Positions 32,398-53,609 of a stretch of DNA of 64,000 bases are shown here, piece by piece. The notes under the pieces were generated by a model. The model ran no database searches, was not told the DNA's origin, and was given only the letters and a program-made list of their open reading frames with translations. Source of the stretch: Bacteroidia bacterium (GTDB taxonomy: Bacteria > Bacteroidota > Bacteroidia > Flavobacteriales > Flavobacteriaceae); the NCBI GenBank assembly GCA_030430535.1, contig JAUIKY010000013.1, forward strand, positions 1-64,000, read 5' to 3'. How positions within the stretch are numbered: the stretch's first letter is position 1; the number at the start of each line of letters is the position of its first letter. A program made the position numbers and the translations under genes.

Positions 32398-33630
32398 TCA
32401 TTGATTTCCATTAATAAAAACCCGCTCCACTTGATGCTCACCAAACGAATACGGTATAAAATAATAAGAATTGATTGGCTTTGTTAAAATTAAATTAGCC
32501 TTTTTTCCAACAGTAATACTGCCCACTTCGTTTTGCAAGCCCATGGCATAAGCCCCGTTTATGGTGGCCGCATTAATGGCTTCTTCGGGAGTAAGTTTCA
32601 TTTTTATGCAGGCCACCGAAACCACAAAATTCATATTGCCCGAAGGCGATGAGCCCGGGTTGTAATCTGTGGCCAATGCTAGAGGCAATCCCGCATCAAT
32701 CATTTTTCGCCCCGGTGTGTACGGAATTCCCAAAAAGAACGAGCAACCCGGTAAAGCTACGGGCATGGTTTTGGTATTTTTTAAGGCTTCTATATCGTCA
32801 GGTTCCATTTCCTCCAAATGATCTACGGAAAGCGCATTATGCTCCACTCCAGCTTTTACCCCACCTAACGAGGTAAATTGGTTCACGTGAATTTTCGGCC
32901 TCAACCCAAAAGGTTTAGCTGCTTCCAAAATACGCTGGGTATCTTCTACCGAAAAATAGCCCGACTCGCAAAACACATCCACAAAATCGGCTAAATGTTC
33001 TTCGGAAACTTTTGGGAGCATCTCATCAATAATAAGTCTTAAATAGCCTTCTTTGTTATCTTTATATTCCGACGGAACGGCATGCGCTCCCAAAAAGGTG
33101 GCTTTTATGGGGAGATTATAATTTTCCTTTAATCTCTTAATCACACGAAGCATTTTTAACTCAGCTTCCACCGTTAAACCGTAACCCGATTTTATTTCAA
33201 TGGCTCCCGTACCCACGGCCATGACTTCTTCCAAACGTGTCTTTGATTGATTATACAAATCATCCTCTGAAGTATTTTGAAGTATTTTTGCCGAATTTAA
33301 AATACCGCCTCCTTTTTCAGCAATTTCTTGGTACGACAGCCCTTTTATCTTATCGACAAATTCGCTTTCGCGATTTCCGGCATACACCAAATGGGTGTGC
33401 GAATCGCACCAAGTGGGCAATACCATTTTACCTGCAGCATCAACCACTTCATCGGCTTCTATTTTTGGGCAGTTTTCCATTTTACCAAAATCGGAAATCA
33501 ATCCTTTTTCCACCAATAAATAGGCGTTTTTAATAGTGGGCAAGTGCGCCATGGCTTTTCCTGAAACAAAATCAATAGGCTCTTCCCGAACTTGAAGCAG
33601 TTCTTTTATGTTTTTAAATAGTATTCGCAT
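32398..33630 (-). CDS. hutI: Imidazolonepropionase
   Basis: A 410-residue amidohydrolase that opens the ring of 4-imidazolone-5-propionate to N-formimino-L-glutamate, step three of histidine breakdown. Metal-binding histidines are in SHTHLVYAGNRESEF, substrate contacts in EIKSGYGLTVE, further metal ligands in KIHVNQFTSLGG and DHLEEM, and the metal aspartate in ATDYNPGSSPSGN. Length is canonical. Its ATG overlaps the hutU stop by one base (TAATG), so it is the last gene of hutH-hutU-hutI. The enzyme for the following step (hutG or equivalent) is not in the window. Confidence 0.96.
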   Translation of the reverse strand: MRILFKNIKELLQVREEPIDFVSGKAMAHLPTIKNAYLLVEKGLISDFGKMENCPKIEADEVVDAAGKMVLPTWCDSHTHLVYAGNRESEFVDKIKGLSYQEIAEKGGGILNSAKILQNTSEDDLYNQSKTRLEEVMAVGTGAIEIKSGYGLTVEAELKMLRVIKRLKENYNLPIKATFLGAHAVPSEYKDNKEGYLRLIIDEMLPKVSEEHLADFVDVFCESGYFSVEDTQRILEAAKPFGLRPKIHVNQFTSLGGVKAGVEHNALSVDHLEEMEPDDIEALKNTKTMPVALPGCSFFLGIPYTPGRKMIDAGLPLALATDYNPGSSPSGNMNFVVSVACIKMKLTPEEAINAATINGAYAMGLQNEVGSITVGKKANLILTKPINSYYFIPYSFGEHQVERVFINGNQ

Positions 33631-35753
33631 TAAAACAGGTTTTCCAATAATTCATCCTCAACTAAATTGGGCAAGGTTACTTTTAAATTTGGTGTGCGCT
33701 CCATTTCTCGGTTTATAGCGAAAATAGCTTCTTTATTCCTTGCCCAACTTCTTCGGGCGATACCATTATTCACGTCAAAAAAGAGCATACTTTTCAATCG
33801 CTCTTCAGCTTCTTTAGTGCCGTCGAGTAAGATTCCGAACCCACCATTAATGACCTCGCCCCAACCTACGCCACCACCGTTATGGATGGATACCCAAGTG
33901 GCACCTCGAAAACTATCACCAATAACGTTGTGCATGGCCATATCGGCGGTAAACTTACTGCCGTCGTAAATATTCGAGGTTTCCCTGTACGGCGAATCAG
34001 TACCACTTACGTCGTGGTGGTCGCGCCCCAAAACCACCGGGCCAATTTCACCATTGGCTATGGCTTGGTTAAAAGCTTGGGCTATTTTTGTTCGACCCTC
34101 AGCATCCGCATATAAAATACGTGCCTGCGAACCCACCACCAAATTATTTTCCTTGGCATTTTTTATCCACGTAATGTTGTCCTGCATTTGAAGCTGAATC
34201 TCTTCTGGTGAATCTTTCATAATATCTTCCAAAACTTCAGCTGCTATATTATCAGTTTTGTCCAAGTCGTTAGATTTTCCAGAGGTACATACCCAACGGA
34301 ACGGCCCAAAACCGTAATCGAAACACATAGGCCCCAAAATATCTTGTACATAAGATGGGTAAGCCCATCTCCCAGCCTCTTCCCCAAGGGAAGAGGAGCT
34401 TACTTTCTCATTTTTATTATTGAGAAACACCTTGGCATCAGCACGGGAAGCTTCCAGTAAAAACGCATTTCCGTAATCGAAAAAATACGTGCCCCGTTCG
34501 GCGTGTTTGTTTATCGCTTCGGCATGTCGACGTAACGATGCTTGAACTTTCTCTTTAAACTGTTCCGGTGCTTCGCGAAGCATACGGTTCGATTCTTCAT
34601 ACGATATACCTACCGGATAGTAACCACCCGTCCACGGAATATGTAACGATGTTTGGTCGGAGCCTACATCAATAAAAATATTATCTTCATAAAAACGTTC
34701 CCAAACCTCAACCACATTTCCGATGTAGGCTATGGAAACAACCTCTTTTTCCGTTTGAGCTTTTTTGACACGGGCAACCAACTCTTCTAAATTATCAATC
34801 AGCACATCAACCCAACCCTGTTCGTGCCGTTTTTTGGCCGCACTGGGGTTTACCTCGGCACAAACGGAAATGCAACCCGCAATGTTTCCGGCTTTTGGTT
34901 GCGCACCACTCATGCCGCCCAAACCAGAGGTTACGAAAAGCCTCCCATTCCTCCCTTCCGAGGGAGGGGAAACAGCGTTCTTTTTATTTTTTGGGTTTGA
35001 GAGAAAAGCCCTTTCTCCTTCGGAGAGAGGGTTTGGGAGAAAGGCTGCTATTTTCCTAAATGCATTCATCACCGTAATCGTTGTGCCATGTACAATACCT
35101 TGCGGGCCAATGTACATAAATGAACCGGCCGTCATTTGTCCGTATTGGGTAACCCCGAGAGCATTGAATCTTTCCCAATCATCGGGTTTGGAATAATTAG
35201 GGATCATCATTCCGTTGGTCACAACCACCCTTGGAGACTGCTTTGACGATGGAAACACCCCCATAGGATGCCCCGAATACATATGCAGGGTTTGCTCGTC
35301 GGTCATATTCGCTAAATATTTCATCGTTAACAGATACTGTGCCCAATTTTGAAACACAGCCCCGTTGCCACCGTAAGTAATCAGTTCTTCAGGATGTTGC
35401 GCCACATCAGGGTTCAAGTTGTTCTGAATCATCAACATAATGGATGCGGCTTGCAAGGATTTTGCAGGATATTCTGAAATGGGGCGGGCAAACATTTTAT
35501 ATTTTGGCTTGAAACGGTACATATAAATCCGTCCATAATCGTTCAATTCTTGGGCAAATTCGCAGGCTATAACCTCATGCCATTTTTTCGGAAAATAGCG
35601 TAACGCATTTTTTACCGCCAACTGTTTTTCGGCTTTCGAGAGTACATCCTTTCGTTTTGGCGCTCTGTTAACTTCGATTGAATAATCGTATTTTGGCGGC
35701 AACTCATTCGGAATACCTTGTAATATTTGTTCTTTGAATGTCATTTGCTTCAT
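33630..35753 (-). CDS. hutU: Urocanate hydratase with two repeat-derived in-frame insertions
   Basis: A 707-residue NAD-dependent urocanase converting urocanate to imidazolonepropionate. Core motifs are intact: TYGGNGAVFQNWAQY, MYSGHPMGVFPSS, FVTSGLGGMSGAQPKAG, HIPWTGGYYPVG, CFDYGFGPFRW and GRDHHDVSG. Two segments look foreign: residues ~236-271, rich in Pro/Ser/Glu/Gly (PNPLSEGERAFLSN, PPSEGRNG), between NAFRKI and RLFVTSG; and ~452-464 (VSSSSLGEEAGRW), between FLNNKNEK and AYPSYVQDI. Each is encoded by palindromic repeat DNA (34993-35046, 34950-34967, 34362-34396). The frame is open and the catalytic regions complete, so the enzyme may still work. Overlaps hutH by one base. Confidence 0.93.
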   Translation of the reverse strand: MKQMTFKEQILQGIPNELPPKYDYSIEVNRAPKRKDVLSKAEKQLAVKNALRYFPKKWHEVIACEFAQELNDYGRIYMYRFKPKYKMFARPISEYPAKSLQAASIMLMIQNNLNPDVAQHPEELITYGGNGAVFQNWAQYLLTMKYLANMTDEQTLHMYSGHPMGVFPSSKQSPRVVVTNGMMIPNYSKPDDWERFNALGVTQYGQMTAGSFMYIGPQGIVHGTTITVMNAFRKIAAFLPNPLSEGERAFLSNPKNKKNAVSPPSEGRNGRLFVTSGLGGMSGAQPKAGNIAGCISVCAEVNPSAAKKRHEQGWVDVLIDNLEELVARVKKAQTEKEVVSIAYIGNVVEVWERFYEDNIFIDVGSDQTSLHIPWTGGYYPVGISYEESNRMLREAPEQFKEKVQASLRRHAEAINKHAERGTYFFDYGNAFLLEASRADAKVFLNNKNEKVSSSSLGEEAGRWAYPSYVQDILGPMCFDYGFGPFRWVCTSGKSNDLDKTDNIAAEVLEDIMKDSPEEIQLQMQDNITWIKNAKENNLVVGSQARILYADAEGRTKIAQAFNQAIANGEIGPVVLGRDHHDVSGTDSPYRETSNIYDGSKFTADMAMHNVIGDSFRGATWVSIHNGGGVGWGEVINGGFGILLDGTKEAEERLKSMLFFDVNNGIARRSWARNKEAIFAINREMERTPNLKVTLPNLVEDELLENLF
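34362..34396 (-). repeat. Palindromic repeat inside hutU (insertion B)
   Basis: CCTCTTCCC (34376-34384) and GGGAAGAGG (34388-34396) form a perfect 9-bp stem with a 3-nt loop, flanked by a TCTCCCAG stretch. It codes for VSSSSLGEEAGRW in hutU. The GC-rich, purine/pyrimidine-segregated hairpin is unlike the surrounding coding sequence. Confidence 0.75.
34950..34967 (-). repeat. Palindromic repeat inside hutU (insertion A, part 2)
   Basis: CCTCCCT (34950-34956), TCCG, AGGGAGG (34961-34967): a perfect 7-bp stem. It codes for PPSEGRNG in hutU, directly before the conserved RLFVTSG. Confidence 0.75.
34993..35046 (-). repeat. Hairpin flanked by direct repeats inside hutU (insertion A, part 1)
   Basis: CCCTTTCTCC (35009-35018) and GGAGAGAGGG (35022-35031) pair at nine of ten positions. 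Flanking 18-mers GGGTTTGAGAGAAAAGCC (34993-35010) and GGGTTTGGGAGAAAGGCT (35029-35046) are direct repeats with 15 of 18 matches. Codes for FLPNPLSEGERAFLSNP in hutU. Confidence 0.75.
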
Positions 35754-37267
35754 TATTTAACTACAAATTTTCGGTTTTCAACCAACCCAATCAGTGCGTT
35801 TATATCATCTTTTAAAATTCTATCGTCTTCCAATTTGGGAACGGTATTTCTAATGATATTAAAGTTTGTTTCTAAAATACATGAAAAAGTATTGGGACGC
35901 CTAAATTCCATGGCCTGTGCGGCGTACATCAATTCTATTGCCAATATTTTTTCAATATTTCCTAAAACTTGGTTGAATTTTCTACCAGAAATACTACCCA
36001 TGGAAACGTGGTCTTCCTGCCCTAAAGAAGTGGGAATGCTATCTGCAGAAGCCGGAAAGCACAAGGATTTATTTTCTGAAACCAAAGCTGCGGTGGTGTA
36101 CTGCGGAATCATAAATCCAGAATTCAGCCCGCCACTTGAAGTGAGTAATCGTGGTAACCCGTATTTGCCTTCAATGAGCAAATAGCAGCGTCTATCTGAA
36201 ATATTGCCTAACTCGGACGCCGCCAAAGCTGCATAATCGAGCGCCATGGCCAACGGTTGCCCATGGAAGTTTCCGCCCGAAATAGCTTCGGTGTCGCTCA
36301 ACACAATGGGATTATCGGTCACCGAATTCATTTCAATGGTTGCCAATTCCTTTAAATGGTAAAAAGCGTTTCGGGACGCTCCGTGTACCTGCGGAATGCA
36401 ACGCATAGAATAGGGGTCTTGAACGCGCTCGCAATTTTCGTGTGATTTAATATTATTCGAATCTTTGAACAGCATACGCATACGCTCGGCCACCTCAAGG
36501 TTGCCCTTAAACGGACGAATGCTATGCAGCAATTCCTTAAACGGCGACTCGCTGCCCTGATAACCTTCCAAACTCATAGCCCCAGCCACATCGGCCAAAT
36601 CGAGCAAATATTGCATTTTGTGCAGCCCCGTTATGGCGTGCGCCAAAATAAATTGCGTACCATTTATAAGAGCCAAACCTTCTTTTGCTGCCAGTTGTAG
36701 AGGTTCTAAACCGCAACTTTTCAAAACTTTTTGGGCTGGAACGATTTCGCTACCCACCCAAAATTCACCTTCACCAATAAGCGGTAAAAATAGATGCGCC
36801 AAAGGTGCCAAATCGCCCGAAGCACCCACCGAACCCTGCTCAGGTACTACGGGCAACAAATCGTTTTCAATAAAATAAATAATGCGCTCAACCACCTCAA
36901 AACGGATGCCCGAAAACCCACGACACAAGGCATGCACTTTGCAAATCATCATGATTTTGCTCAATTGCTTTGAAATGGGCTTCCCTACGCCTACGGCATG
37001 GGTTAGCAATAAATTCTTTTGCAACAATCCCGTTTCCTCGGGAGAAATCTTAACATCGCACAACGGCCCGAACCCGGTATTGATGCCATAAATAGCTTTG
37101 GGCGAATTGGCCATTTTTTCAACCTTCGCACGGCTATCGTTTATTTTTGAAATGACATAATTGGTTAGCTTGGCCTGCATTTTTCCATTGGCAACAGACA
37201 TAACTTTGCCAACCGTCAACTGGTCAACGCCGTAAACAAACACCTGATTTTTAACTCTTCCGCTCAT
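35753..37267 (-). CDS. hutH: Histidine ammonia-lyase
   Basis: A 504-residue member of the aromatic amino acid lyase family that deaminates histidine to trans-urocanate. The self-forming MIO cofactor triad Ala149-Ser150-Gly151 lies in GSVGASGDLAPLAH, with the family's YGINTGFG (60-67), QDPYSMRCIPQVHG, TDNPIVL and SGGNFHGQP segments. First gene of the hutH-hutU-hutI operon, joined by 1-bp TAATG overlaps. A -7 box (37272-37279) lies so close to the ATG at 37267 that the mRNA is probably leaderless or nearly so. A divergent LysR gene shares the promoter region and is the likely regulator. Confidence 0.96.
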   Translation of the reverse strand: MSGRVKNQVFVYGVDQLTVGKVMSVANGKMQAKLTNYVISKINDSRAKVEKMANSPKAIYGINTGFGPLCDVKISPEETGLLQKNLLLTHAVGVGKPISKQLSKIMMICKVHALCRGFSGIRFEVVERIIYFIENDLLPVVPEQGSVGASGDLAPLAHLFLPLIGEGEFWVGSEIVPAQKVLKSCGLEPLQLAAKEGLALINGTQFILAHAITGLHKMQYLLDLADVAGAMSLEGYQGSESPFKELLHSIRPFKGNLEVAERMRMLFKDSNNIKSHENCERVQDPYSMRCIPQVHGASRNAFYHLKELATIEMNSVTDNPIVLSDTEAISGGNFHGQPLAMALDYAALAASELGNISDRRCYLLIEGKYGLPRLLTSSGGLNSGFMIPQYTTAALVSENKSLCFPASADSIPTSLGQEDHVSMGSISGRKFNQVLGNIEKILAIELMYAAQAMEFRRPNTFSCILETNFNIIRNTVPKLEDDRILKDDINALIGLVENRKFVVK

Positions 37268-53578: not shown

Positions 53579-53609
53579 TGAGATATTCATTTTTTTAAGA
53601 ACTATACAA

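Follow-up and report, generated by a model that had tools for sequence, protein, structure and literature searches.

REP-type palindromic units in frame within a flavobacterial urocanase gene, and their possible kinship with DUF559-bearing inserts of other enzymes

The hutU gene of a flavobacterial genome (G000) carries palindromic units of the REP/BIME type at two places within its open reading frame, and units of the same kind recur in the same two loops of urocanate hydratase (HutU) in other genera. In several other enzymes of the order, inverted units flank a DUF559 endonuclease domain that lies in the host frame, and these inserted domains group apart from other DUF559 domains. We think it probable that the larger hutU insert, insert A, is a translated REP-type pair and a small, endonuclease-free relative of the DUF559-bearing element.

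Results

Palindromic units in the hutU reading frame

The window analysed here, a 64-kb stretch of the G000 genome, contains hutU between two genes that resemble hutH and hutI (Table 1). HutU matches PDB 6uek with an E-value of 3.1e-240, the alignment being interrupted at the insert. The initial annotation had described a preserved reading frame and two hairpins, and both descriptions hold: hutU is stop-free, the hairpin at 34950–34967 (CCTCCCT-TCCG-AGGGAGG) has a perfect 7-bp stem, and the one at 35009–35031 forms Watson-Crick pairs at 9 of 10 positions. The two units of insert A are located on opposite strands and form an inverted pair, as REP/BIME elements do. The two 18-bp direct repeats of the same annotation are present as well and border hairpin 2, but the 18-mers at 34993 and 35029 are identical at only 15 of 18 positions and the repeats are therefore imperfect. 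An interpretation of these repeats as an 18-bp target-site duplication was dropped, given the 15/18 agreement and the single recognisable copy in the congener G001. The 106-nt stretch folds better than its shuffled versions (z -2.34, with 4 of 200 shuffles equally good), which is modest evidence taken alone.

Table 1 Features of the hutU region (window coordinates).
Feature	Position	Strand	Remarks
hutU, urocanate hydratase, host of inserts A and B	33630..35753	-	707 codons, stop-free
Insert A, two palindromic units, heads outward	34944..35048	-	codons 236-270, 35 residues, RKI and RLFVTSGLGG on either side
Unit A2 (hairpin 2 in insert A)	35006..35044	-	35.8 bits, unit covariance model
Unit A1 (hairpin 1 in insert A)	34937..34975	+	28.8 bits; inverted relative to A2; also in congener G001
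Insert B region, single unit	34362..34424	-	codons 444-464 (LNNKNEKVSSSSLGEEAGRWA); protein identical in G001
Unit B in insert B	34363..34401	+	31.1 bits
hutI-like gene, downstream of hutU	32398..33630	-	intact ORF; named by eye
hutH-like gene, upstream of hutU	35753..37267	-	intact ORF; named by eye

When the unit model was run on the window, three matches with E < 1e-4 were obtained, every one in hutU; since these three are seeds of the model, the result is partly given by construction, and non-seed copies elsewhere in the genome are firmer evidence than the window matches. Some of the weak matches, such as the AT-rich one at window position 53596 (E 0.015), may be terminators.

Recurrence of the units in two HutU loops

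HutU was present in 31 of the 40 relatives searched. The span from GIVHG to GLGGMS measures 35–38 residues in 142 of 157 parsed HutU loci (mode 38, found in 106), frequencies that are not population estimates because the loci are top-ranked matches chosen partly for length, hence enriched for long HutU, and a few may represent the same genome in two collections; L033 and L104 were outside the parsed set. With a span of 64 residues in the window, the net gain due to insert A is ~26–29 residues. The initial annotation had counted about 36 extra residues, more than this net gain. Its central observation stands: a metabolic gene carries a palindromic repeat in frame, and most relatives lack this repeat.

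The genus is represented by three genomes, G000 and its congeners G001 and G002. G001 has insert B and unit A1, with hairpin 2 and one repeat copy missing, and HutU of G002 contains neither insert. In other genera, loop A bears units in G030, G009, G257, G330 and G616, and loop B in G030, G527 and G197, so that the insert is not a one-off. Altogether, 9 of the 157 loci are carriers, always in the same two loops. A scan of 160 HutU loci with the unit model produced 15 matches at E<1e-3, all in loops A or B of 9 loci; as 14 of the 15 model seeds come from hutU units, the informative part of this result is the lack of matches at other hutU positions. The carriers are a minority, and their insert sequences and peptides differ; one peptide shared by many unrelated homologues, which the initial annotation had named as evidence against its reading, was not found. 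In G408, loop A (locus L122) comprises 49 residues and gives no unit match, possibly as a decayed insert; its congeners G009 and G257 carry units.

On a quick tree of 77 HutU sequences, the carrier label changes 8 times, at least 7 of these changes being forced by the starred branches, a count no lower than the shuffles give (mean 8.6). The carriers are thus scattered over the tree rather than clustered, which points to repeated entry into loops A and B. From the sequences compared, such repeated entry would be the simplest reading, the alternative being many losses.

Copies of the unit across genomes

A covariance model of the unit, R1, matched the G000 genome 26 times at E≤0.5 and 14 times at E≤0.01, a modest copy number, and had no match at either cut-off in the congener G002. 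The further hairpin copies anticipated in the initial annotation thus exist, and the unit has the REP/BIME property of a short GC-rich hairpin with many dispersed copies. Of 13 G000 loci outside hutU, two are deep within long frames and the remainder are intergenic or near the start of a frame. The two genic loci, both with the unit in frame, were identified through Pfam as an IcmF-like MeaB/mutase fusion (L200) and leucyl-tRNA synthetase, leuS (L205). Inspection by eye of these two proteins revealed additional repeat-like in-frame peptides (IASETKQS, LRQAQNDK, VIANEAKQS and FTLSGVEGS), as if several repeat classes shared the same loops. Many units are found within genes in G030 and G330, among them those for IleRS, LeuRS and ValRS. 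A 146-nt DNA query retrieved only itself from its own genome because the units diverge, and a 19-nt pattern with 3 mismatches allowed located one further genomic site, an undercount.

DUF559 domains between inverted units in host enzymes

The initial annotation made no connection to DUF559. In G330 recG and G030 metH, units flank a DUF559 domain (PF04480) that is in the host frame, and G000 recG (contig C74, 20691–20993; locus L291) likewise encodes DUF559 in frame, with unit-like palindromes at the borders of the domain. Residues 12–427 and 580–825 of this RecG align with T. maritima RecG (1gm5), in which the chain passes from 515 to 519. The insert comprises residues 428–579, where the T. 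maritima enzyme has 3 residues, and the inserted part matches 3hrl, annotated as 'Endonuclease-Like Protein'. The pattern is the same in G219 LeuRS, with query positions 346 to 498 set against chain positions 236 to 243 and 3hrl as the relative.

The DUF559 matches exceed the Pfam cut-off. Pfam recognised both host and DUF559 in one IleRS, two more LeuRS, one more RecG and one more MetH, as well as in a UvrD-type helicase, histidinol dehydrogenase (C-terminal) and HemD (N-terminal); in the remaining DUF559 proteins, conserved motifs on either side of the domain served to identify the host by eye. At E≤1e-20, the 395 genomes of the order yielded 127 matches in 90 genomes. Frames of at least 500 amino acids contain 39 of these, including 7 in large proteins that are not part of the insert group, for example a type ISP enzyme. 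No Hint or intein family was detected at the Pfam cut-offs used in 2 + 8 DUF559-bearing ORFs.

Within 1.5-kb flanks, unit-like matches were found close to the domain on both sides at 19 of 23 insert-type loci, on one side at two (L278 and L288) and on neither at two (L276 and L283), compared with both sides at 10 of 32 non-insert DUF559 loci; many single flank matches in these counts are weak (E 0.01–0.8), and about one chance match is expected per search. The units follow each other in plus-to-minus order with heads outward at 18 of the 19 both-sided loci, and two such pairs are present in L290; the double HutU inserts (G000 A, G030 A and G030 B) show this same order. Around a free-standing DUF559 gene in G036 (L281, contig C17), at least nine weak unit-like matches are arrayed.

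A tree of 68 DUF559 domains, built from an alignment of only 106 columns, places 36 insert-type domains on one side of a branch with 98/95 support and the 32 others on the opposite side. The hosts of the 36 are LeuRS (15), RecG (8), MetH (8), IleRS (2), UvrD-type helicase (2) and HisD (1). The RecG inserts form one clade (99/95), and with all labels the tree requires 16 changes compared with 40.3 in shuffles. In G142, LeuRS and RecG each carry an insert, and the grouping of these two follows the host gene, not the genome. Judging from the sequences, this clustering by site could reflect vertical inheritance.

A linker motif, [YWF]xT[AG], precedes the domain in 34 of 36 insert-type sequences and in none of the 32 others, the pattern having been picked post hoc from the same rows. 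The two insert-type domains that lack the motif are the most divergent sequences; both are leuS inserts (L283 of G004 and L337 of G505) and are perhaps decaying copies. Residues E17, D45, E56, D58 and R74 (L291 numbering) are conserved in 35 or all of the 36 insert-type domains, and also in the others. Among RecG carriers, dN/dS is 0.04–0.19 for the DUF559 part (9 of 21 pairs with finite dS) and 0.02–0.08 for the host part (11 of 21 pairs), rough values because dS is near saturation.

Relation of the hutU inserts to the DUF559 elements

Units and full-length DUF559 co-occur across 45 genomes: both are present in 13 and both absent from 26, and each occurs alone in 3 (p 3e-6; p 3e-4 after removal of the five genomes that had been added for their hutU inserts). 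G030 has a REP-only insert at the LeuRS site where other genomes have DUF559 (E 3.4e-7) and a weak case at the IleRS DUF559 site (E 0.13). None of the HutU proteins examined contains DUF559, and, within a genome, the units that border DUF559 do not resemble the hutU units significantly more closely (171 of 720 permutations gave an equally good result; G030 is the one close case), so that the hutU inserts are empty shells only as far as we infer. In 12 genomes of genus g27, comparison of coordinates by hand placed a DUF559 gene within 0.9 kb of hutU (for example, G616:C1:791662-791946 and G028:C1:788584-788856); loop A of G616 hutU also has a unit.

Discussion

We suggest that a BIME-like pair of units with heads outward reached a permissive surface loop of urocanase before G000 and G001 diverged, and would have remained in frame since only in-frame, tolerated insertions survive. 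On its coding sequence, the insert is presumably translated as part of HutU. In its larger form, the family would include a DUF559 endonuclease domain, enclosed by the same inverted units and placed in the reading frame of other enzymes, and the hutU copy may derive from that form, either as an internally deleted copy or as a MITE-like passenger or non-autonomous relative. DUF559 may be what moves the units: translated within the host enzyme, the domain could cut the empty allele, repair would then copy the element in, and the outcome would be spread that keeps to the same site, with an occasional jump to a new gene. Empty shells could remain where the inverted ends recombine or are joined by repair.

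More tentatively, and with somewhat more doubt than confidence, we propose that Flavobacteria harbour a translated, non-splicing mobile element consisting of a DUF559 (Vsr/EDxHD-like) domain, the [YWF]xT[AG] linker and coding, inverted REP-like palindromes. It might home into loops of LeuRS, IleRS, MetH and RecG and be kept in the host protein, with REP-only inserts of the hutU type as its empty shells and as a source of REPs other than RAYT.

A different explanation, which we regard as rather unlikely, is that the units are ordinary REP/BIME sequences moved by the HUH transposase RAYT (TnpA-REP), in frame by chance, with DUF559 as a passenger on the same ends. In-frame intragenic REPs are indeed documented in parts of two earlier studies (PMC3733652; PMC6006769), and PF01797, the RAYT family, is present in 6 of the 9 other genomes searched, which bear units or are related. 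However, the PF01797 search found no match in G000, G002, G330 or G527, and three of these genomes are nevertheless rich in units (26 matches in G000, 31 in G330 and 29 in G527). At 12 RAYT loci elsewhere, the best flanking unit match has an E-value of 0.24, so that neither there nor in G000 was the REPtron arrangement, a RAYT gene flanked by cognate REPs, observed. By eye, neither a GT[AG]G nor a CGTC tag was noticed on the 5' side of the hairpins in the unit alignment, where the unit heads do not take that position. RAYT as the mover of the units is thus unsupported by this search of G000 and nine further genomes with 12 RAYT loci.

The presence of carriers in distant families, and the filling of both loops in G000 and G030, might suggest that the inserts arrived together with hutU, through horizontal transfer or through gene conversion across lineages. 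This is very improbable, as carriers on the HutU tree have non-carriers from the same groups as neighbours, G000 and G001 cluster with the insert-free G002, and insert sequences vary between carriers. That the loops are a lineage-specific functional feature of urocanase, palindromic by chance or codon bias, is scarcely credible. The identity of the insert B protein in G000 and G001 over 21 codons would agree with it, but the same units are also intergenic and in other genes, and insert A evolves fast, with dN 0.23 and dS 0.35 over 23 codons, compared with dN 0.03–0.06 and dS 0.63–1.10 in the flanks. In the predicted HutU structure (mean pLDDT 68.7, too poor for placing the loops), loops A and B score under 50, which is weak evidence against a functional loop because conserved residues 174–216 and 578–639 do so as well.

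We return to the REP-type pair related to DUF559 elements as the preferred reading. If the link holds, it would provide a candidate REP mover besides RAYT and an element able to persist with neither intron nor intein, tolerated as extra protein. It would become testable which loops of enzymes take up foreign peptide, and the odd inserts of 25–150 residues in annotated LeuRS, MetH, RecG and HutU of the order would be accounted for.

Comparison with known systems

The palindromic elements of Rickettsia insert into genes and leave the frame intact. The hutU units resemble them in being palindromes in genes with the frame kept and differ in host lineage and probably in sequence. The Rickettsia elements are not known to have an endonuclease-bearing form. 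They are mentioned in PMC3733652, whose section on intragenic REPs describes GTAG/CGTC REPs, 20–40 bp palindromes that occur singly or as inverted pairs in frame within ORFs of several taxa, some genes being hit twice and one recB pair at about the same site. The hutU inserts share with these the in-frame palindromes, the single unit and inverted pair, and the two hits in one gene. In the hutU units, inspection by eye revealed no GT[AG]G tag on the 5' side of the hairpin. The gene hutU does not figure in that section, whereas here two of its loops recur as sites across genera. PMC6006769 reports, in the part concerned, in-frame REPs in a peripheral loop of tnpA-REP genes of subclass 2.4, abundant in Bacteroidetes and Cyanobacteria. 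These two reports give published precedents for REPs in frame in coding genes. The hutU insert resembles the subclass 2.4 case as a REP in frame in a protein gene; the hosts here, in contrast, are metabolic and housekeeping genes, no RAYT was found in G000 itself, and the 12 RAYT loci of other genomes have no unit match beside them better than E 0.24.

DUF559 is tied to the EDxHD homing family in the intein section of PMC9403480, which cites Taylor 2011. Like the EDxHD or Vsr-like homing endonucleases of introns and inteins, the DUF559 inserts place such a nuclease in genes and cluster by site; unlike them, they show no splicing partner in the ORFs scanned, are bordered by REP-like palindromes and keep the host frame. 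In the relevant text of PMC12308824, repeated segments with transposase and DUF559 are recombination hotspots. A search of the open-licence literature with the terms used found no paper on DUF559 with such palindromes or in frame in housekeeping enzymes. The ShiLan insertion in a phage methylase, as outlined in PMC11855218, bears an endonuclease, leaves the host frame open and has no known splicing domain; its HNH endonuclease uses a frame other than that of the host, whereas the DUF559 domain here shares the host frame. As an intragenic repeat of REP/BIME type, the hutU insert belongs to a known kind, and what looks new is the company of DUF559 that its inverted units keep, in frame, in other enzymes.
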